Shown one piece after another: positions 10,987 through 18,528 of a DNA stretch of 64,000 nt. The DNA is taken from assembly GCF_000148645.1 (NCBI RefSeq), contig NC_014541.1, positions 3,247,139 to 3,311,138 of the forward strand, in the 5' to 3' direction. The stretch is from Ferrimonas balearica DSM 9799. GTDB lineage: Bacteria; Pseudomonadota; Gammaproteobacteria; Enterobacterales; Shewanellaceae. Made by a program: the position numbers and the translations under genes. Numbering within the stretch: position 1 is the stretch's first letter; each line of letters opens with the position of its first letter. A model generated the notes under the pieces. That model was not told the origin of the DNA. It saw nothing but the letters and a program-made list of their open reading frames with translations, and made no database searches.

Positions 10987-11080
10987 GTGCAAACTTGTTC
11001 AATAGCGCAGAGAAATTGAACGATTGATCCGCCGTGACTCCTGTGGAACACTCCAGCGCCAAACAATAAAAGGAGGCCCT

Positions 11081-11827
11081 GTGGTCCAACCCCTGCTGTT
11101 CATTCTGCTGTGCCTGTTGCTGGCACAACCCGCCTGGAGTCAGTCAACCGACCGCACCGTTGAGCAGGTTTTGCGTACCTATGGCCCCGATGCCCGACAG
11201 CGTCTCGCCCCCTTCTTTGCCACCCTGCCCGAAGGCTTTAAACCGGTGGCGATGAAGCTGGTGGCGATCAAAGCTGACCGCCGCATGGAGGTGTGGCTGC
11301 AAGGTGCCGATGGCCAATGGGGGGAGCTGCGCAGCTACCCTATTCTGGAGGCCAGTGGCAGCTTGCGACCGAAGATGCGCCAGGGCGATTTCCTGGTGCC
11401 GGAGGGGGTATATCGCATCGAAGCGGCCAATCCCAACAGCCTCTATCACCTGTCACTGAAGATCGATTATCCCAACGCCATGGACCAACACTATGGTGCC
11501 ATGGAGCAGCGGGGCGATCTGGGCGGCGACATCTTTATCCACGGCCGTGACGTTTCCCAGGGCTGTCTGGCCATGGGCGACCGCTATATCGAAGAGTTGT
11601 TCGTGCTGGCCCATGACATCGGCCTGGAGAACATTGAGGTGGTGATCAGCCCACGCGACCCGCGCCACAGCGAGCTGACCGTGCCCTTTGGCCTGCCGGG
11701 ATGGGTGGCCGATAAGTACAGTGAGATCGCCCAGAGCATGGCACCGCTGGCCCCGGACAATCCGCTGCTGGCACCGCGCGTCGAAGCGGAGATGGCTCAG
11801 CAGGAAACCGTGCAGCTTCAGCCCTGA
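11081..11827 (+). CDS. YkuD-fold L,D-transpeptidase-family protein (YafK/DpaA-like)
   Basis: Exported peptidoglycan enzyme of 248 residues. The GTG at 11081 is chosen because AAAGGAGG lies just upstream and it yields a clean signal peptide (VQPLLFILLCLLLAQPAWSQ). The catalytic YkuD motif appears as IHGRDVSQGCLAM, with the nucleophilic Cys and upstream His in the expected spacing. Conserved surroundings (KMRQGDFLVPEGVYRIE, YPNAMDQHYG) resemble E. coli YafK/DpaA, which removes Braun lipoprotein from peptidoglycan. Whether this protein links or releases lipoprotein cannot be decided from sequence. The 3' end overlaps the convergent response-regulator gene by 10 bases. Confidence 0.85.
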   Translation: MVQPLLFILLCLLLAQPAWSQSTDRTVEQVLRTYGPDARQRLAPFFATLPEGFKPVAMKLVAIKADRRMEVWLQGADGQWGELRSYPILEASGSLRPKMRQGDFLVPEGVYRIEAANPNSLYHLSLKIDYPNAMDQHYGAMEQRGDLGGDIFIHGRDVSQGCLAMGDRYIEELFVLAHDIGLENIEVVISPRDPRHSELTVPFGLPGWVADKYSEIAQSMAPLAPDNPLLAPRVEAEMAQQETVQLQP

Positions 11828-12426
11828 GCCTGATGTCGCCCCAACAGCAGCGCCAGCTCCGCGGCGTTGCTGACCCCCATCTTGTCGAACAGGTTGTGGC
11901 GGTGGATCTCCACCGTCCGCTGGGCGATAAACAGCTCCGCCGCGATCACCTTATTGGCTTTACCGGCCACCACCCGCTCCATCAGGTCCCGCTCTCGAGG
12001 CGTTAACGAAGCCAGTCGCTGCTCCAGGTCCGCCTTTTGTCGGCTGCTTTGCGCCAACTGGCTGGAGCGCGCCAGTCCCTGCCTGATGATGGCCAGCAAC
12101 TTGTCGCCATCGACCGGTTTCTCGAGAAAATCCAGCGCCCCGTTCTGCAGCGCCTGAACCGCTTTGGGCACCGTCGCATTGCCGGTCAGAAACACCTGGC
12201 TTAACGGGCTGCCCACACGATTCAGCTCCGCCTGCAGCTCAAGCCCATCCATCACCGGCATCTTGATGTCGATGATCGCTACGCCGGTCTGTGTCGGGTC
12301 CAGTTCCGCCAGAAAAGCCTGGGCCGAGGCAAAGCAGCGAGGCTGGTAGCCACAGCCCTCCAGCATCCAGCTCAGGGCCTCGCGTACGTCCGCTTCATCA
12401 TCAATGACAAAAATCGCGTTGCTCAT
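11818..12426 (-). CDS. Response regulator, FixJ/TtrR type (receiver + LuxR helix-turn-helix)
   Basis: 202 residues. The receiver domain has the acidic pair DD at 9-10, the phospho-acceptor Asp53 in IIDIKMP, Thr near 82 (LTGN) and Lys near 102 (EKPV). The C-terminal LuxR-type DNA-binding domain begins LTPRERDLMERVVAGKANK and contains the recognition helix AQRTVEIHRHNLFDKMG. The ATG at 12426 overlaps the kinase stop by 4 bases (ATGA), so translation is coupled and the two proteins form a cognate pair. The best family match by eye is TtrR/FixJ. The repeated motif at 14343, 14545 and 17108 is the likely binding site (inference). Confidence 0.9.
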   Translation of the reverse strand: MSNAIFVIDDEADVREALSWMLEGCGYQPRCFASAQAFLAELDPTQTGVAIIDIKMPVMDGLELQAELNRVGSPLSQVFLTGNATVPKAVQALQNGALDFLEKPVDGDKLLAIIRQGLARSSQLAQSSRQKADLEQRLASLTPRERDLMERVVAGKANKVIAAELFIAQRTVEIHRHNLFDKMGVSNAAELALLLGRHQAQG

Positions 12427-14219
12427 TGTTGCTCTCCCGGCAGCCATACCTTTATCTCCAGCCCCGGGTTGGCATTCCGGGCGCGAATTGTACCTTGGTG
12501 TTCATCAACAATGCGTTTGCACACCATCATCCCTAGCCCCAGCCCATCCGGTTTGCTGCTTTCAAACGGGAAGAACAGCCGCCCCAGCGCATGCTCGGAG
12601 AGGCCGCTGCCGTGGTCACGAATGGACACTGTCCAGCCGCCCTGTTCCGGTTGCAGGCTTAACTCCAGTGCGCGCTGCGAGGGGGTCAGAGTCTCCATGG
12701 CATCCAGACCATTGCGCAGCAGGTTTACCAGCACCTGTTGAATCAATACCCCATCGCCGGGAACACTGGGATGCTGATGCGCCGGCAATACCAGCGCCGG
12801 GGTGCAATCAAAGCGGCGGAAGTCTGGTGCCATCATCTCCAGGGTTTCCTGGATCAAGGGCACCAGCGCCACCGACTCAGTGGCCATCGGTCGGGCGCAG
12901 AAGCTCTTCAGGCGCTGAATAATGCCTTGAGCTTTCTCGGTCTGCCGGCCAATACGCGCCAACCCCTCTTTCAACTCCTCGGGCTGCGCCCCGCTCTCCA
13001 GCCGGTAGCCACACCCCTGAGCCAGATAACGGATGCTGGCCAGCGGCTGATTCAGCTCATGGGCGATGCCTGCGGCCATCTCTCCGGTCAGCAGAATTCG
13101 CTGCGCTTTGTAAAACGCCCGCTCCTGCTCGGTCAGGCGCCGCTGTGTCTGCTCATGTTGCGCCATCTCCTGGCGCAACTCCTGAGTTCGACGCGCCACC
13201 ATTGCGCGCACCCGCAGGTGATGCAGATAGCCCGCCACGAGCAGCAGGGCCAGGACCAGCGCATAGGGCATCGCCTCTCCGGCCAGATAGCGCCAGTCGG
13301 TCTCGAACGGCCACAGGCCGATGGACTTCAGCAGCGCGTAAACCTCCCGGTCGTTCACCGGCACCGTCCAGTGGCGATACAAACCACTTTGGGCGGCCGG
13401 GTGCGTTGAATCCAGCTCCAGCAGTCGCCGCACCAGATACGTGGCCACATCGCTGTCGGCGCTGCTCAGCATCGTCACGGTAAAGTAGGGATAGAGCGCG
13501 CTGCTCACGCCACAGGGGAACCCCTGCGGGCGCTGATCCAACGCCACAGTCAAAGCCCCGGGTGGCACCCGGCCGTCCCGGACAGCGTTCTCCAGCAGGC
13601 AACTCGGCAGAATCGCCACATCCGCGCTGCCATCCAACACCCGCTGCAACAGGGCCCGCTGCGGGAAACCGACAAAGTTAAGGTTCTGGAAAAACGACTC
13701 CGGCGACAGCCCGTGCTCCGCCAGCTCTCGCCAGAACGCGTAATAGCCGCCAAAAGCATGGGGCGAGGTGGAGACCACCCTCAGTGGCGCGAGCTCGTCG
13801 ATCTCCGTCACCGCCTCGCCAGCGCGCATCACCAACGCAGAACCAATGGCTTTCTCGGCCGAATCTGTCCACAGCGGTGCCGCGGTCAACAGCTGGCTGG
13901 CGCCAAACTTCTCTTTGAACTGCACCGCCTTGACCGAGTTCTGAATCATAAAATCGAACTCACCACGTTCGGCCGCCTGGCGCAGCTCCTGCGGTGGCAG
14001 GGCACGAACTTCAAAGTGGTAATCGGACTGGCCCTGATTGAGGTAGTCGAGTGTCGGTTGCCAGCGCCGCTCCACCCGTTCCGGGTGGTCAAACGACGCC
14101 ACGGCGACCGGCACCCGCTGTTGGCCGAGGGCGCTGCCGGCAAAGCACAGCACCCACCCGGCCAGCAGCCATCCCCCATTTCGCCATCGCCCGAAAAGGC
14201 GCTTACTGTTTCGCTGCAA
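12423..14219 (-). CDS. Membrane sensor histidine kinase with periplasmic PhnD-like domain (TtrS type)
   Basis: 598 residues. A signal peptide/first membrane segment (about 15-33, ending SALGQ) is followed by a periplasmic phosphonate/tetrathionate-type binding domain (about 36-310). A membrane helix (317-333), a coiled linker, the HisKA box with His387 in GIAHELNQP, and an ATPase domain with N box NLLRNGLDAM, DHGSGL and GLGLGM follow. This is the architecture of the tetrathionate sensor TtrS. The start is a TTG at 14219 with GGAG six bases upstream; nearby ATGs are out of frame. No tetrathionate reductase lies in the window, so the ligand may differ. Confidence 0.88.
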   Translation of the reverse strand: MQRNSKRLFGRWRNGGWLLAGWVLCFAGSALGQQRVPVAVASFDHPERVERRWQPTLDYLNQGQSDYHFEVRALPPQELRQAAERGEFDFMIQNSVKAVQFKEKFGASQLLTAAPLWTDSAEKAIGSALVMRAGEAVTEIDELAPLRVVSTSPHAFGGYYAFWRELAEHGLSPESFFQNLNFVGFPQRALLQRVLDGSADVAILPSCLLENAVRDGRVPPGALTVALDQRPQGFPCGVSSALYPYFTVTMLSSADSDVATYLVRRLLELDSTHPAAQSGLYRHWTVPVNDREVYALLKSIGLWPFETDWRYLAGEAMPYALVLALLLVAGYLHHLRVRAMVARRTQELRQEMAQHEQTQRRLTEQERAFYKAQRILLTGEMAAGIAHELNQPLASIRYLAQGCGYRLESGAQPEELKEGLARIGRQTEKAQGIIQRLKSFCARPMATESVALVPLIQETLEMMAPDFRRFDCTPALVLPAHQHPSVPGDGVLIQQVLVNLLRNGLDAMETLTPSQRALELSLQPEQGGWTVSIRDHGSGLSEHALGRLFFPFESSKPDGLGLGMMVCKRIVDEHQGTIRARNANPGLEIKVWLPGEQQ

Positions 14220-14342
14220 TCTGTGCTCCAGGACGTCATTCAGCCCACTTCAGGGCCCAAGACCGATATGAACGCGGTTTGACAGCTATTGTGACGCAAT
14301 TTGGTCCTGGCCGACGGCGTCAAGGTCACATCCCTTGCCGGT

Positions 14343-14358
14343 TTGCGGAAAACCACTA
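14343..14358 (+). promoter_or_regulatory. Shared motif copy A
   Basis: TTGCGGAAAACCACTA, identical over 16 bases to the reverse complement of copy C at 17109-17130. It lies ~125 bases upstream of the kinase start and may allow autoregulation (inference). Confidence 0.6.
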
Positions 14359-14544
14359 GTCCCCTTTACGCCCAAATGTGGCATCCCGACGGCGTGTGAA
14401 CGCGCCCCCTCAGCAAAATGTGATCGCAATGTCGCTTTCGCCAAAATCGGGAGCCGCCCCACCAAATTCACCCAATGAAATAACCAACTTATCCATTATC
14501 GCTCTGTCAGCATCGTGACCACCCTCACCGCTCACCGGCCCCTT

Positions 14545-14561
14545 CGGAAAACCACTATATC
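14545..14561 (+). promoter_or_regulatory. Shared motif copy B
   Basis: CGGAAAACCACTATATC, identical over 17 bases to the reverse complement of copy C (17108-17124). A further AAACCACC half-site follows at 14568-14575. It lies upstream of the porin gene. Confidence 0.65.
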
Positions 14562-14707
14562 GGGTTCAAACCACCCTCGGTTGTAATCCCAGCGTCGATA
14601 ACGCCCCGGCGGGGCCACCACCACTCGGCGGGTGCCATTGCGCAACGCGCACTGCCTGGCATCCAGAAGCCACCGGGCCAGTAAGGTCCGAAACACTGGG
14701 ATAACTG

Positions 14708-15745
14708 ATGAACACGATGACACGTTCCACGCTCGCTGCAGCCTGTACCACCGCACTGTTTCTCTCTGCCAATGCCCAGGCCGATATGCCGACCTTTTAC
14801 GGCACTCTGGATTACTCCATCACTCACAGCTCCTCAGGCGTGGGCACCCAGCAAACCGGTCAGGACGGCTGGTTGCTGGAAAACAACTTCACCCGACTGG
14901 GTTTGCGCGGCACCCACGCCATCTCCGAGAGCACCGAACTATTCTATCGTGCTGAGGTGGGACTGAACGCCGACGACAACGGCGACACCTTCTCCTCCCG
15001 TCCGACGTACATCGGCTTAAAGCACGACGTTGCAGGTGCGATCTCTGCGGGCCGCATCGACCCGGTGCTGAAGATGATCAAGGGCGGTGCCGACATCTTC
15101 GGCCTGACCACCATGACCATGGACCGGGTGTTTGCCGGTAACAAACGCCACGGTGACTCTCTGGAGTATCGCTCTGCAAAGTGGAACAACATCCATCTGG
15201 GTGCCAGCGTCATCCTCAAGGACGACGCCAACAGCCCCTATGACGACAACTACCAGTTGGCACTGACCTACGGCGACAAGCAGTTCTCCCAAAGTAACTT
15301 CTACCTGGCCGCCGCTTACGGCAATGGCATTGAGGGGATTGAAGCGATCCGGGCGGTAGCACAGTACAAAATCAATAACCTGAAACTGGGTGTGATTGTG
15401 CAAAGCACCCAGGCACTGGAAGGGTTCAACAAAGACACCACCCACTATGAGTCCCGCGACGGATTTGGCTACATCATCAACGCCCAGTACCAGTACAACG
15501 CCTGGAAGCTGAAGGCGCAGTTTGGTCAGGACGATTCCGGTACCGGCCGGGTGGCCAACGAGGTTTATAAGGCGGGCGCATATCGTGGCGACGAAACCCC
15601 GACCGTGACTCAGATGGCACTGGGTGCGGAATACAAGATGGCGCGTCAGGTCACCATGCACACCGAACTGGGCCACTACAACGTGGACGGTTACAGCGAC
15701 TTTGATGACAGCATCGCCAGTATTGGTCTGAAATACCAATTCTGA
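14708..15745 (+). CDS. Outer-membrane porin (Gram-negative general porin type)
   Basis: 345 residues with a signal peptide (cleavage after ANAQA near residue 25). The mature start DMPTFYGTLDYSITHS and the run of alternating amphipathic strands ending in the terminal Phe (SIGLKYQF) are typical of 16-strand trimeric porins recognised by the Bam machinery. The loop 3 region cannot be used to predict selectivity. It is divergent from the two-component genes and carries motif B in its control region, so it is a likely target of that system. Met4 is an alternative start; the ribosome site is weak for both. Confidence 0.88.
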   Translation: MNTMTRSTLAAACTTALFLSANAQADMPTFYGTLDYSITHSSSGVGTQQTGQDGWLLENNFTRLGLRGTHAISESTELFYRAEVGLNADDNGDTFSSRPTYIGLKHDVAGAISAGRIDPVLKMIKGGADIFGLTTMTMDRVFAGNKRHGDSLEYRSAKWNNIHLGASVILKDDANSPYDDNYQLALTYGDKQFSQSNFYLAAAYGNGIEGIEAIRAVAQYKINNLKLGVIVQSTQALEGFNKDTTHYESRDGFGYIINAQYQYNAWKLKAQFGQDDSGTGRVANEVYKAGAYRGDETPTVTQMALGAEYKMARQVTMHTELGHYNVDGYSDFDDSIASIGLKYQF

Positions 15746-15791
15746 ACCACAGGCCATCGTTGCATCTCATTAGCGTGTAACGGTGGATGAT

Positions 15792-15823
15792 AAAAAAGGG
15801 CACCGAATCGGTGCCCTTTTTTT
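15792..15823. terminator. Bidirectional terminator between porin and apbE
   Basis: GGGCACCGA / TCGGTGCCC stem flanked by A-run and T-run, serving the two convergent genes; it reaches the apbE stop codon. Confidence 0.85.
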
Positions 15824-16997
15824 AGTTCATCTCTATTTGGTACTTTTCAAACCCGCTGGTTGACACTTTATTTCCCTGTTCATCCAGATACCAAACCGCT
15901 TCCAGATAGGGAATGGATTCGGCCATATCCATCGCTTCTTTCATTGGCATAAGAAACAATGTTGTTGACAGTACGTCGGCATAAATATGCTGTTCATTCA
16001 TTACCACAGAGACAGACACCCCTTCGGTTTTGGGGTACCCCGTATTCGGGTTAATGATATGGTGATACTCTTTATCACCAACACGGTAATACTTCAGGTA
16101 ATTACCACTGGAAACAATCGTCAGGTTTTCTCCAGCCACAATTTCGTGAAACTGCCCTTCAAGTTGCTGACATTGGCTTGGTTGAAAGTCATATTTCTTA
16201 CAGACCGGGTCTTCAATCGCCGTCACAAAGGCACGGCCTTGTGGATGGCGGCCCCAGTGACGAATGTTGCCACCGGCGTTGATCACAAAGGAGCGCATCC
16301 CGGCCGCCACCAACTGGTCTTTCACCTTCTCTGCCATCCAGCCTTTGGCAATCCCGCCCAGATCCAGGCTCATCCCTTCACCCAGCGTGACGGTGTTAGC
16401 ATCCACATCGAGGTTTATCTTGCTGATGTCCGTGTATTTTGAGGCATTTTCAATCGCTTGCGGCGACGGCAGCGAACACCCGTTATCCGCCGCTTCCGGC
16501 TCGGCGCAAGCATTGCGTTTTTGGCGCCACTGCTGAACCACGGGCCCAACGGCAATATTAAAATAGCCCTTGGAGATCCGGTGCCAGTCGATGCCGGCCT
16601 GGATAAGCTCAGTCAACTCCGGGTCAATCTTGTGAACCTCGGTGGGCGCATTATTGATGGAGCGGATATTCACCACCCCATCATAGGTCTGGTAATCCGA
16701 CCCCTGCTGATGGAGTCGTTTGATGGTGGCCAGGCTGTCACACAACGCCTGTTTTGCATCGCCCTCCCCGGCATCATAAACCTGGATGGCGATGGAGGTA
16801 CCAAAGTATTTCAGTGTGGTCAGATTGGTATAACCCGACGTTTCAGAAATAATGCCATCGAGCTCACATTGAGTATCGAATTGATTTCGCTCGCTTGTTT
16901 TTGCCGGGAGTTGATCGGCAATAACATCCGCGTTTGAGAACACAGGGGACGCAGGCATAAGAAGTGCTATTGCGCACACAATTTGTTTTGGTTTCAT
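15822..16997 (-). CDS. apbE: FAD:protein FMN transferase (ApbE), exported
   Basis: Transfers FMN from FAD covalently to a Thr/Ser of target proteins outside the cytoplasm. 391 residues from the ATG at 16997. The signal peptide (MKPKQIVCAIALLMPASPVFS) implies a periplasmic location. The ApbE core is recognised by EGMSLDLGGIAKGWMAEKV, FVINAGGNIRHWG and GYPKTEGVSVSVV. It is divergent from a lipoprotein with the SGAT flavinylation motif, its probable substrate. The longer frame reaching 17039 begins in sequence without ribosome site. Confidence 0.93.
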   Translation of the reverse strand: MKPKQIVCAIALLMPASPVFSNADVIADQLPAKTSERNQFDTQCELDGIISETSGYTNLTTLKYFGTSIAIQVYDAGEGDAKQALCDSLATIKRLHQQGSDYQTYDGVVNIRSINNAPTEVHKIDPELTELIQAGIDWHRISKGYFNIAVGPVVQQWRQKRNACAEPEAADNGCSLPSPQAIENASKYTDISKINLDVDANTVTLGEGMSLDLGGIAKGWMAEKVKDQLVAAGMRSFVINAGGNIRHWGRHPQGRAFVTAIEDPVCKKYDFQPSQCQQLEGQFHEIVAGENLTIVSSGNYLKYYRVGDKEYHHIINPNTGYPKTEGVSVSVVMNEQHIYADVLSTTLFLMPMKEAMDMAESIPYLEAVWYLDEQGNKVSTSGFEKYQIEMN

Positions 16998-17184
16998 CAA
17001 ACAACCGATTGCTGGATTGGGATGAAAATATCTTAGCACAACCCATCATCCGGAATAGCAATTTAAATCATGGCGATCGGGATCACAATTTCAAATAAAA
17101 ACACCCGGATATAGTGGTTTTCCGCAATTGTCCAAAACCACCAATTCCCTATTCTCACCTTCATACACTATTCATCAGAAAAGT
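16998..17184. promoter_or_regulatory. Divergent control region apbE / flavoprotein with motif copy C
   Basis: Motif C lies at 17108-17124 (minus-strand reading CGGAAAACCACTATATC). An inverted half-site makes a palindrome GTGGTTTT (17114-17121) - 12 bases - AAAACCAC (17134-17141). A CRP-like site, TGTGA-N6-TCGCC read on the minus strand, covers about 17070-17091 (left half strong, right half poor). Either divergent gene could be controlled from here. Confidence 0.6.
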
Positions 17185-18528
17185 ATGGGTGAGACCGTGA
17201 ACCACTTTAATCGCATCAAGTTGTGCCTGGTAAGCTCTGCAGTGGCGCTGGCCGTTGCAGGTTGCTCCGCGACAGCCCCGGCTGGCAAATACGTAGATGG
17301 CACCCACGACGTGTCCGCCAGAGGCAAGAAAAGTGACATCGTACTGACCGTGGTGGTTGAGCAGGGCAAGATCCAGCAGATCAAAACCAAATCCCACAAC
17401 GAAACGGAATCACTGTTCCTGAATGCCGAGCGTTTGCTGCCGCAGATCGTCGCCAACAACGGCCATGAAGGGATCGACGCTGTCTCCGGTGCCACCATCT
17501 CCTCTAACGGGATTCTGCGTGCCATCAACGACCTGCCGCGGGCAGACGGTTCTCAGCCGGAGTTTCAAACCGTTGCCGCCAAGCAGGCTGACGAGGAGGA
17601 GTTCAAGCTGAAGTGGTCCATTCAGCCCCAACTGGGCCTGATTAAAGGCGACTACTACTACGAAGAAGCACGCTTCCGCCAGGGCCATATGGGCTCCATG
17701 GCCGTGGTTGTCGACAGCAACAACCCCAGCGACGTGATCTTCGCCGAGTTCAACGAGGATGGCCGTCCCAACTACTACACCCGCCTGTACCAGAACGTGC
17801 CGAAGCGGATGTCCGAGTACAACTTCTCCATGGGTAAAAAGAAGGGCACTGCCTGGGTGCAGTCCTCCCTGACCATGGAGCGACTGATGGTGGAAGAGGA
17901 CAAGCTGACCTTTGAACTCAACCCGGATTGGGATCCCAAGCTGGCCAACAAGCTGAAAGAGCCGAACCGCCTGAAGTACCAGGACCTGGACATCGTGGCC
18001 GGTGCATCCAACTCCATTCAGCAGTCCATGGTGCCGCTGACCGCCAAGATCCACAGCCGCATCACTGGTGAAGGCACCACCCTGAAGTTCTACCAGCAAG
18101 CCGAGAAGCTGCTGGATGAGAAGGGTAAGTGGACCGGCCTGACCGCAATGCTGCGCTTTGTGGTCGACACCAACACTCAGCAGATTGTCGACGTTTACTA
18201 CGACGAGATCTTCGCGGACGAGAAAGCCCAGATCACCGACGCGTCGCTGAAGAAGTTCTACCGTCAGTCCAAGTACCAGTCCATCGGTTACGAAGAGCCG
18301 GCCCGCATCGGTTTCAACGTGATGTTTGATGCGCTGGAAGCCCACATCGTTGAAGGCGGCTCCATGTTCGACATCAACGACCTGCCTGCGACCGGCGACA
18401 CCGGCAGCTACGCCGCCACCGGCTTTACCAAGCTGTCCACCAGCTGGGCGAACTACCTGAAGCTGGCCGACACACTGTACCAACAGATGCGTGCGGACGG
18501 TGTGGTCGCCGAGCACAGCAAAGGCTGA
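17185..18528 (+). CDS. FMN-binding-domain lipoprotein, probable ApbE substrate
   Basis: 447 residues. A lipoprotein signal ends at Cys27 (AVAGC). Residues ~35-115 form an FMN_bind domain with the covalent flavinylation motif DAVSGATISS; Thr104 is the predicted attachment site. The remaining ~320 residues repeat FMN_bind-like features (GHMGSMAVVVD, GLTAMLRFVVD) without another SGAT. A flavin-bearing outer-membrane or periplasmic electron carrier or reductase is the likely role; the electron acceptor is unknown. ATG 17185 was chosen; GTG 17197 is a possible alternative that keeps the signal. It is divergent from apbE. Confidence 0.85.
   Translation: MGETVNHFNRIKLCLVSSAVALAVAGCSATAPAGKYVDGTHDVSARGKKSDIVLTVVVEQGKIQQIKTKSHNETESLFLNAERLLPQIVANNGHEGIDAVSGATISSNGILRAINDLPRADGSQPEFQTVAAKQADEEEFKLKWSIQPQLGLIKGDYYYEEARFRQGHMGSMAVVVDSNNPSDVIFAEFNEDGRPNYYTRLYQNVPKRMSEYNFSMGKKKGTAWVQSSLTMERLMVEEDKLTFELNPDWDPKLANKLKEPNRLKYQDLDIVAGASNSIQQSMVPLTAKIHSRITGEGTTLKFYQQAEKLLDEKGKWTGLTAMLRFVVDTNTQQIVDVYYDEIFADEKAQITDASLKKFYRQSKYQSIGYEEPARIGFNVMFDALEAHIVEGGSMFDINDLPATGDTGSYAATGFTKLSTSWANYLKLADTLYQQMRADGVVAEHSKG

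Follow-up and report, generated by a model that had tools for sequence, protein, structure and literature searches.

The two-component systems TtrSR and ThsSR, which accompany ttrBCA or phsA-type genes in Vibrio and Shewanella, couple a PhnD-like sensor kinase to a FixJ/LuxR-type response regulator, and TtrR-type regulators activate transcription from boxes of two GG/CC half-sites, four bases apart, that lie upstream of the -35 element and are accompanied by a Crp/Fnr co-site. In Vibrio parahaemolyticus the TtrR box is GTGG-N4-CCAC, directly upstream of the -35, and was tested by electrophoretic mobility shift assays and reporters (PMC11293645), and the PphsA promoter of Shewanella halifaxensis was reported to need Crp binding for full activation in an Escherichia coli reporter (PMC5408782). 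Here we describe a relative of these systems in Ferrimonas balearica DSM 9799, encoded within a stretch of 64,000 nucleotides of contig NC_014541.1 (positions 3,247,139 to 3,311,138; henceforth the window, whose numbering is used for all coordinates of this locus), where a TtrS-like kinase and a TtrR-like regulator are linked to a porin, to the flavin mononucleotide (FMN) transferase ApbE and to a flavin lipoprotein, here termed FLP. Whereas the Ttr and Phs systems control molybdenum reductases, this one appears to control the porin together with the flavoprotein and its ApbE or, in some relatives, with a flavocytochrome c. That these genes form a single regulon is very probable; we further propose, with a probability of roughly 0.55, that the whole constitutes a Crp-gated, two-component-controlled periplasmic module of anaerobic respiration in which FLP acts as the terminal or near-terminal oxidoreductase. 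No paper on this module was found in the open part of PubMed Central.

Pfam searches agree with the original prediction on the identity of all five genes. The response regulator (11818..12447, minus strand) combines a receiver domain (Response_reg, PF00072) with a LuxR-type DNA-binding domain (GerE, PF00196) and is TtrR/FixJ-like, while the sensor histidine kinase (12423..14219, minus strand) joins a PhnD-like periplasmic sensor domain (Phosphonate-bd, PF12974) to HisKA (PF00512) and HATPase_c (PF02518) domains. The outer-membrane porin (14708..15745, plus strand) belongs to Porin_4 (PF13609) and has homologues in both the FLP and the flavocytochrome loci discussed below; ApbE, a flavin adenine dinucleotide (FAD):protein FMN transferase (15822..17039, minus strand), matches PF02424 with 222 bits against a gathering cut-off of 25.6; and FLP (17185..18528, plus strand) matches FMN_bind (PF04205) with 52.4 bits (cut-off 22). 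By eye, the regulator and ApbE may start at internal ATG codons near 12426 and 16997, respectively, and FLP possibly at a GTG at 17197 instead of the ATG at 17185, from which its residues are numbered here. As had been stated, the module of the window encodes no classic reductase according to Pfam: FAD_binding_2 (PF00890) is absent from its five proteins, and neither ttrBCA nor phsABC was found among the neighbouring open reading frames (ORFs) of the window or their Pfam domains.

The five genes were originally connected through repeated words in their control DNA, namely CGGAAAACCACTATATC at 14545-14561 (plus strand) and 17108-17124 (minus strand), and TTGCGGAAAACCACTA at 14343-14358 (plus strand) and 17112-17127 (minus strand). 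Both are present, exactly, at these positions, and the accompanying claim that they exceed chance holds: allowing three mismatches, CGGAAAACCACTATATC is found at three places in the window against 0.07 expected, a number reached in none of 100 shuffles, and TTGCGGAAAACCACTA at three places against 0.34 expected, a number reached in two shuffles. The sites at 14343 and 14545 have 13 bases in common. Over the entire genome (one contig, 4,279,159 bases) the 13-mer CGGAAAACCACTA has three exact occurrences, each at this locus, and its reversed control has no exact match; hence a genome-wide repeat, the possibility on which the original prediction had made itself dependent, is rejected. Five further sites in the genome differ from CGGAAAACCACTA by one mismatch, and with up to two mismatches there are 97 matches against 139 for the reversed control, i.e. 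no enrichment; similarly, the looser form TTGCGGNNNNCCRCWA with one mismatch allowed gives 128 matches against 173 for its control, and has two exact matches outside the locus (481307 and 1195873). The lack of genome-wide enrichment at up to two mismatches is what could be cited for the shared motif being a chance or repeat element unrelated to the genes, and against this stand the shuffle control and the footprint of the box in 49 of 53 FLP loci and in all six loci in which FLP is replaced (see below), so that we give this explanation practically no credence. Motif searches thus define three predicted operators: GCGG-AAAA-CCAC on the kinase side (14345..14356, plus strand), TCGG-AAAA-CCAC, one base off GCGG, at the porin promoter (14544..14555, plus strand), and GCGG-AAAA-CCAC between the divergent apbE and FLP genes (17114..17125, minus strand). 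The first two are oriented alike, both toward the porin gene.

The linkage of the five genes extends to related organisms. Among 152 genomes of the family, 67 have an FLP match of some kind, which is full-length in 53 and covers approximately the FMN_bind part alone in the other 14. The 53 full-length proteins are 68-91% identical to that of the window (the latter itself apart), with E-values below 1e-200, and comparison of the genomic stretch around all of them recovered, among ORFs of at least 100 amino acids, homologues of ApbE in 52, of the kinase in 50, and of the porin and the regulator in 49 each. The co-occurrence that the original prediction had proposed to look for is thus nearly complete, and the comparison of relatives also places the porin and the ApbE-type flavoprotein within the regulon. 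No other gene family occurs in more than 25 of the 53 loci in a clustering of ORFs of at least 100 amino acids. Some of the absences fall at contig or fragment ends (L069, L070, L105); the module cut in L105 (genome G057) has apbE, kinase, regulator and two symmetric boxes on another contig (L292). Three gene orders are seen. In the window and three near relatives the leftward regulator and kinase genes are followed by a rightward porin, a leftward apbE and a rightward FLP; Shewanella-type loci as well as L065 and L066 have leftward regulator, kinase and apbE followed by rightward FLP, mostly with a rightward porin thereafter; and other Ferrimonas-type loci have rightward FLP and apbE and, farther on, a leftward porin followed by rightward kinase and regulator.

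Counting k-mers with no preset motif across 40 Shewanella-type apbE-FLP gaps returned CGGAAAACCG in 36, GAAAACCGCA in 32, ATTGCGGAAA in 30 and AAACCGCAAT in 18 of them, which together describe a symmetric box, TGCGG-AAAA-CCGCA, present in about half of the gaps in the full form TTGCGG-AAAA-CCGCAA. At the kinase-side and porin sites this box recurs with a right half resembling CCACTATAT; overall the box is mostly GCGG-N4-CCRC, with T or A in place of the first G at some sites, and GCGG-N4-CCGC stands before FLP 32 times in the 53 loci. A pattern written after seeing the sites, [AG]CGG-N4-CC[AG]C, matches DNA preceding FLP or the kinase once or more in 49 of the 53 loci (48 of 53 FLP and 38 of 50 kinase upstream regions). 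In the 50.7 kb of this upstream DNA there are 87 pattern sites, compared to 95 in the rest of these loci, which amounts to 850 kb, and to a mean of 2.8 (maximum 8) in 100 dinucleotide shuffles.

The promoters of ttrB genes in the family (TtrB matches at E<=1e-90) provide a direct comparison: all 27 carry a TtrR-type box, most often ATGTGG-AAAA-CCACTATAG, and by eye a Fnr/Crp-like half-site about 13 bases before it. Since 26 of these boxes have GTGG and one (G061) has GCGG, the module box differs from them mainly by GCGG for GTGG. GTGG-N4-CCAC boxes were also found in 15 of 30 further loci with a TtrS-like kinase that were scanned (three of the 30 are ttr loci), and 9 of the 15 have them as pairs 93-95 bp apart. 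GCGG-N4-CCRC thus has the TtrR-type geometry of two half-sites upstream of a promoter without the exact GTGG letters and, judged from its bases, is a variant of the TtrR box that is conserved across two genera. This geometry, its occurrence in two genera and the persistence of the box where FLP is absent favor the proposal of one compact regulon under a TtrR-like regulator. The regulators themselves differ in the recognition helix, where 47 of the 48 module proteins displayed (of 49) have the glutamine of an AQRT or GQRT motif, the remaining one being truncated, and the residue is M, V, I or L in 44 of 44 paralogues. This glutamine is suggestive, at most, as the cause of GCGG versus GTGG, because the ttr regulator of G061 has I despite its GCGG box. 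The G061 locus itself (contig C44 around 165829; L131, L218, L272) is of the ttrBC type with a TtrS-like kinase and a GCGG-AAAA-CCACTATAG box adjoining a Crp-like site, and cross-talk between the ttr system and the module is possible in this organism.

A second conserved element, missed by the original prediction, occupies positions -30 to -17 relative to the CGG of the box and has the Crp-like form GTGA-N6-TCAC. It was defined on 57 sites of the CCRCT type (nearest gene: 36 kinase, 10 FLP, 6 flavocytochrome, 4 porin and 1 apbE; the symmetric apbE-FLP sites are outside this count), of which 45 remained after removal of near copies. Among these 45 it accounts for the only other strongly conserved positions, TCAC being exact in 35 (at -20) and GTGA or TTGA present in 30, and for most boxes with a CCRCT right half the two elements are 28 bp apart, centre to centre. 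The conserved-position count and the window sequence locate a complete site, GTGACCACCCTCAC, before the porin operator (14515..14528, plus strand) and a TCAC half at the conserved -20 before the kinase-side box (14326..14329, plus strand), with the left half mismatched. The Crp-like site would point to anaerobic-respiration control. Promoter elements were read by eye. The porin gene has a putative -10, TGTAAT (14582..14587, plus strand), 20 bases past the 17-base motif, where several relatives have TATAAT; FLP has a putative -35, TTGTCC (17128-17133), and -10, TATTCT (17150-17155), 16 bases apart and adjoining the third operator (17128..17155, plus strand), and the relative L074 has TTGTTA-N16-TATTCT at this position. 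Between the -35 and -10 of FLP there is also a second AAAACCAC (17134-17141), which forms GTGGTTTT-N12-AAAACCAC with the third operator and is not seen in the relatives L062-L064. Several Shewanella-type loci have, in addition, a TATAAT-like hexamer 20 bases downstream of the kinase-side site and pointing at the 3' end of apbE (between it and the kinase start in L074 at 6424, L090 at 6476 and L108 at 6477), possibly the promoter of an antisense or small RNA transcript.

The sensor could in principle be a genuine TtrSR or ThsSR system and the module one that handles tetrathionate or thiosulfate. Such an interpretation can draw on the same domain layout, on the TtrS model NF040750 being the best NCBIfam match of the kinase, on a box that is a near copy of the TtrR box and on the Crp site reported also for PphsA (PMC5408782). 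However, the kinase scores 291.3 bits against an equivalog cut-off of 750, and the regulator 173.1 bits against a cut-off of 290 for the TtrR model NF040749 (tetrathio_RR), which is its second best match after FixJ, all matches being under the cut-offs. As none of the 152 family genomes passes the TtrS cut-off, a low score is by itself a weak argument. In a tree including 25 of the 50 FLP-linked kinases, these form their own clade with a support of 1.0, apart from the kinases adjacent to ttrB (15 rows, three being duplicates of one gene; a clade with a support of 0.97) and from other paralogues. The sensor domains of the module are 29.5% identical to those of ttrB-adjacent kinases and 29.0% to those of other paralogues, while identity between these two groups is 41%. 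Further, the F. balearica genome encodes another, higher-scoring TtrS-like kinase, a TtrB query at E<=1e-90 found no match in it, and ttrBCA and phsABC are lacking from the vicinity of the module. With scores under the cut-offs, no TtrB match in the genome at that threshold and a separate kinase clade, we reject a true TtrSR and regard a tetrathionate or thiosulfate module as very improbable; the tetrathionate-type sensor of the original prediction thus finds no support. In view of its distinct clade, the kinase probably senses neither of the two ligands. The module hence shares with TtrSR and ThsSR the type of sensor kinase and regulator, the spacing of the half-sites and the Crp/Fnr co-site, and differs from them in its kinase lineage, its scores under the cut-offs and its mostly GCGG half-site.

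Genomes with the sensor and without FLP proved to be the most informative. Exact matches to the 13-mer in 11 genomes lacking FLP were first taken as chance, a view abandoned for four of them (G028, G067, G070 and G149), which carry a module-type kinase with the 13-mer site just upstream; these led us to the replacement loci. A search with the sensor domain alone (E<=1e-45) recovers 59 of the 152 genomes. Full-length FLP is encoded in 53 of them, which are all the genomes that have it, and is missing from six, which belong to a Shewanella-type genus (g4); the 93 genomes lacking the sensor have neither a full-length FLP nor the flavoprotein that replaces it in the six. In all six, the kinase and regulator adjoin genes for an FAD flavoprotein whose N-terminus is Tat-like, for a small cytochrome and for a porin that shares 43-44% identity with that of the window, and tblastn with the window proteins found neither ApbE nor FLP in these stretches. 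Pfam identified FAD_binding_2 in all three flavoproteins scanned (of six) and Cytochrom_c3_2 in the one cytochrome scanned (of six); the same three flavoproteins exceed the cut-off of the flavo_cyto_c model TIGR01813 (330-340 bits, cut-off 285). Among proteins of solved structure, one of them is closest to urocanate reductase (E 1.7e-48) and to flavocytochrome c3 (E 7.2e-47). Because the HHTMGG and NRLGGNA motifs of these enzymes read NYTQGG and IRLTACS in it, this flavoprotein is, by its motifs, expected to be neither a fumarate nor a urocanate reductase. In each of the six genomes a TCGG-AAAA-CCRC box, preceded by a Crp/Fnr-like site, lies some 70 bp ahead of the flavoprotein gene. At E<=1e-130 this flavoprotein is found in 7 of the 152 genomes, the six and G002, a Ferrimonas with an FLP module that encodes the flavoprotein and small cytochrome elsewhere (L301 7329-9259) with no kinase or porin beside them.

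FLP therefore occupies a slot that in other genomes is filled by an exported, flavin-based enzyme related to the fumarate- and urocanate-reductase-like flavocytochromes FccA and UrdA of Shewanella, from which it differs in having no FAD_binding_2 domain and in being a lipoprotein made of FMN_bind and an unclassified C-terminal region. ApbE attaches FMN to the threonine of the SGAT motif of exported proteins. The motif it acts on has been given as D-x-x-[S/T]-G-A-[S/T] (PMC12052999), and FLP combines it, by sequence, with PF04205 and an export signal as expected of an ApbE target. From the N-terminus it comprises a lipobox with Cys27, FMN_bind with D98-AVSGAT-104, and residues 142-447. Cys27 is invariant in 28 aligned rows and is followed by alanine in 37 and serine in 13 of the 50 proteins (of 53) matched by pattern, and never by aspartate. 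Under the Lol rule, a lipoprotein without aspartate after the lipid-bearing cysteine goes to the outer membrane, and FLP is on this account predicted to be an outer-membrane lipoprotein. The ApbE motif at 98-104 reads DAVSGAT or DAISGAT in 47 of 53 proteins and DAVSGST in six. All 53 have, in addition, a near motif, D-x-x-A-G-A-S, one residue off the ApbE motif (D269-IVAGAS-275 in the window protein), which in a Clostridia homologue (L187) is the exact ApbE motif DTVSGAS, as well as a degenerate TGFT (Thr415). The residues T104, S275 and T415 are invariant in 25 rows that include the homologues from Mycoplasmatota (61%) and gut Clostridia (44-47%).

AlphaFold models of FLP contain strand-strand-strand-helix units at approximately 39-115, 151-294 and 300-437. 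In Foldseek searches the whole model matches best two FMN domains, 8p2b and 8p2a, together with CPE2226, an FMN_bind protein (3o6u, probability 0.99), and the sole plausible match of the C-terminal model is again 3o6u (probability 0.85, rank 6). These models suggest that FLP may hold three FMN_bind-like units. Compared with the CPE2226 entry, with which it shares the FMN_bind fold, FLP is distinguished by having one exact, one near (AGAS) and one degenerate (TGFT) ApbE motif and by a highly conserved C-terminal part. In the C-terminal 306 residues (142-447) no Pfam family exceeds its cut-off, and there are weak, scattered, noise-like matches, the best with an E-value of 0.008 in 3 of 25 members; in the same region, numerous charged and aromatic residues are invariant between phyla.

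FLP proteins are found under the record names of Ferrimonas, Shewanella species, one Marinobacter nauticus, one Mycoplasmatota and four Clostridia, and two peptide patterns retrieved homologues at 43 loci in genome contigs. FLP is rare across the order, being present in 8 of 394 genomes and 2 of 114 genera, none of them outside the family of the window, and a profile of its C-terminal region matched 1 of 291 genomes in the class of one Clostridia homologue, which is the seed itself. The Mycoplasmatota homologue (strain zrk6; L176 8839-10254, 62% identity; two ApbE genes elsewhere in the genome) is likely to reflect a transfer between bacteria of different phyla. ApbE is encoded in four of the five Mycoplasmatota and Clostridia genomes, outside the fetched stretches, and the neighbours of these homologues (L185 apart) gave no functional hint. 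The Marinobacter nauticus record (DP3N21-5; L146) contains a Ferrimonas-type FLP 91% identical to that of the window and may be misnamed.

Taken together, the system is a variant of the flavinylation-based extracytosolic redox systems described by Meheust et al. in 2021 (PMC8238504), in which ApbE likewise lies beside exported FMN_bind proteins and flavinylation and cytochromes are exchanged; the word porin is absent from the main text of that source, and no two-component module of this kind was seen there. Its section 17 describes flavinylated carriers taking the place of cytochromes, for instance in fumarate reductases, with the catalytic domain kept, whereas here the catalytic subunit differs as well. 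The counterpart of FLP and ApbE is here a catalytic subunit together with a cytochrome, and the simplest interpretation is thus that FLP contains the catalytic function; it seems to be interchangeable with a whole reductase, beyond an electron carrier alone. Where the original prediction left the flavoprotein as either enzyme or carrier, the six relatives with a flavocytochrome c pair in its slot favor the enzyme over a carrier alone. The latter would make FLP an outer-membrane FMN wire whose electrons go to extracellular acceptors or to a reductase with its gene elsewhere, in a module that senses the acceptor and leaves the terminal enzyme unencoded. Multi-FMN proteins sharing this fold have been interpreted as carriers of electrons over long distances (PMC10339131), flavinylated domains replace cytochromes in just this role (PMC8238504, section 17), and FLP contains a standard FMN_bind domain and no recognised catalytic one. 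Yet the replacement slot holds a catalytic-type flavin subunit besides the cytochrome, so that more than a carrier differs; the module has no further gene family as a recurrent companion, nor is there an exact 13-mer elsewhere in the Ferrimonas genome; and the invariant charged and aromatic residues of the C-terminal part persist across phyla. We accordingly consider a pure carrier unlikely. Flavin domains are reversible, and FLP itself does not tell the direction of its chemistry. It could hence serve to oxidise or detoxify a reactive solute (an oxyanion or a metal, for example) instead of respiration, an alternative to which no computed result points and which is made quite improbable by the Crp-like site with its promoter layout like that of ttrB promoters and by the exchange partner being of the flavocytochrome c family.

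In the respiratory reading, with FLP as the oxidoreductase, the PhnD-like sensor would bind a small solute of the periplasm, which is probably neither tetrathionate nor thiosulfate, and under anaerobic conditions Crp and the phosphorylated regulator would switch on the kinase-regulator pair, the porin, apbE and FLP. Porin_4 proteins admit small solutes, and the porin would admit the one that is sensed; ApbE would attach FMN to Thr104 and possibly a second FMN to Ser275; and FLP, at the outer membrane, would draw electrons from a periplasmic quinol-linked pool and itself reduce the solute. Its C-terminal region would be the part that catalyses this reaction, and FLP would thereby fill the role of the flavocytochrome c of the six relatives. 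A bolder version, which we advance tentatively and at somewhat less than even odds, is that FLP represents the first member seen of a new class of periplasmic terminal reductase that stands in for an entire flavocytochrome c reductase. Its one recognised cofactor would be ApbE-attached FMN (one exact-motif site, up to three possible) and its C-terminal region would be catalytic, a description we hold to be possible and not quite an even bet. Equally tentative is the corresponding view of the sensor as a further TtrSR-type lineage with its own ligand and electron acceptor.

Several observations weigh against the respiratory interpretation or its parts. FLP has no known catalytic domain; its AlphaFold models are weak, with predicted local distance difference test scores of 67 and 69, and find no PDB match at E<=0.001 with Foldseek; and profile comparison with hhalign detected no internal repeats, the scores from these shallow profiles not exceeding column-permuted controls. 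The exchange of FLP for the flavocytochrome could amount to the same signal coupled to different chemistry, and trees that include the replacement loci (nesting support 0.38 for the kinase; 0.95 for the regulator, midpoint-rooted) do not settle which of the two came first. As to regulation, the Crp-like site at -30 is absent for the apbE/FLP box of the window, the box pattern is missing from 12 of 50 kinase and 5 of 53 FLP upstream regions, and four of the 53 loci have it in neither (L067, L068, L086 and L105, the last being cut by the contig). Nor is the box private to the module, as seen in the true ttr locus of G061 with its GCGG box and a regulator without the glutamine. Exact 13-mers occur at places without a known link to the module in G003, G068, G072 and G137 and also in seven genomes without the sensor, which we presume to be chance. 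Finally, L065 and L066 have no porin homologue within 17 kb, and tblastn with the window proteins found no relatives of the other module proteins beside the Clostridia and Mycoplasmatota homologues, so that FLP does not need its module partners everywhere.

A few neighbouring features deserve mention. A YkuD-family gene (11024-11827), whose 3' end overlaps that of the regulator by 10 bases and whose best NCBIfam match is LdtF/DpaA, under its cut-off, adjoins the module in L061-L064 alone and is not part of it. By eye, the gene after FLP in the porin-less Ferrimonas-type locus L066 (9730-11523) resembles an aryl-sulfate sulfotransferase, and a gene near the regulator in two Ferrimonas-type loci (L087 14534-15937 and a fragment, L072 16725-17102) likewise resembles that of the cytochrome c nitrite reductase NrfA. 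No RNA families were found in the window between 9000 and 22000.

The sensor, the box, the porin and two exchangeable oxidoreductases would together make up a single anaerobic pathway in Shewanella and Ferrimonas, with an acceptor that can now be searched for by experiment. The sensor would be a further lineage of TtrS-like biosensors beside the tetrathionate and thiosulfate sensors used in synthetic biology. If FLP is an enzyme, it would constitute a new enzyme class, in which respiratory reduction can take place on ApbE-attached flavin alone, independently of heme, of molybdenum and of any FAD reductase subunit.

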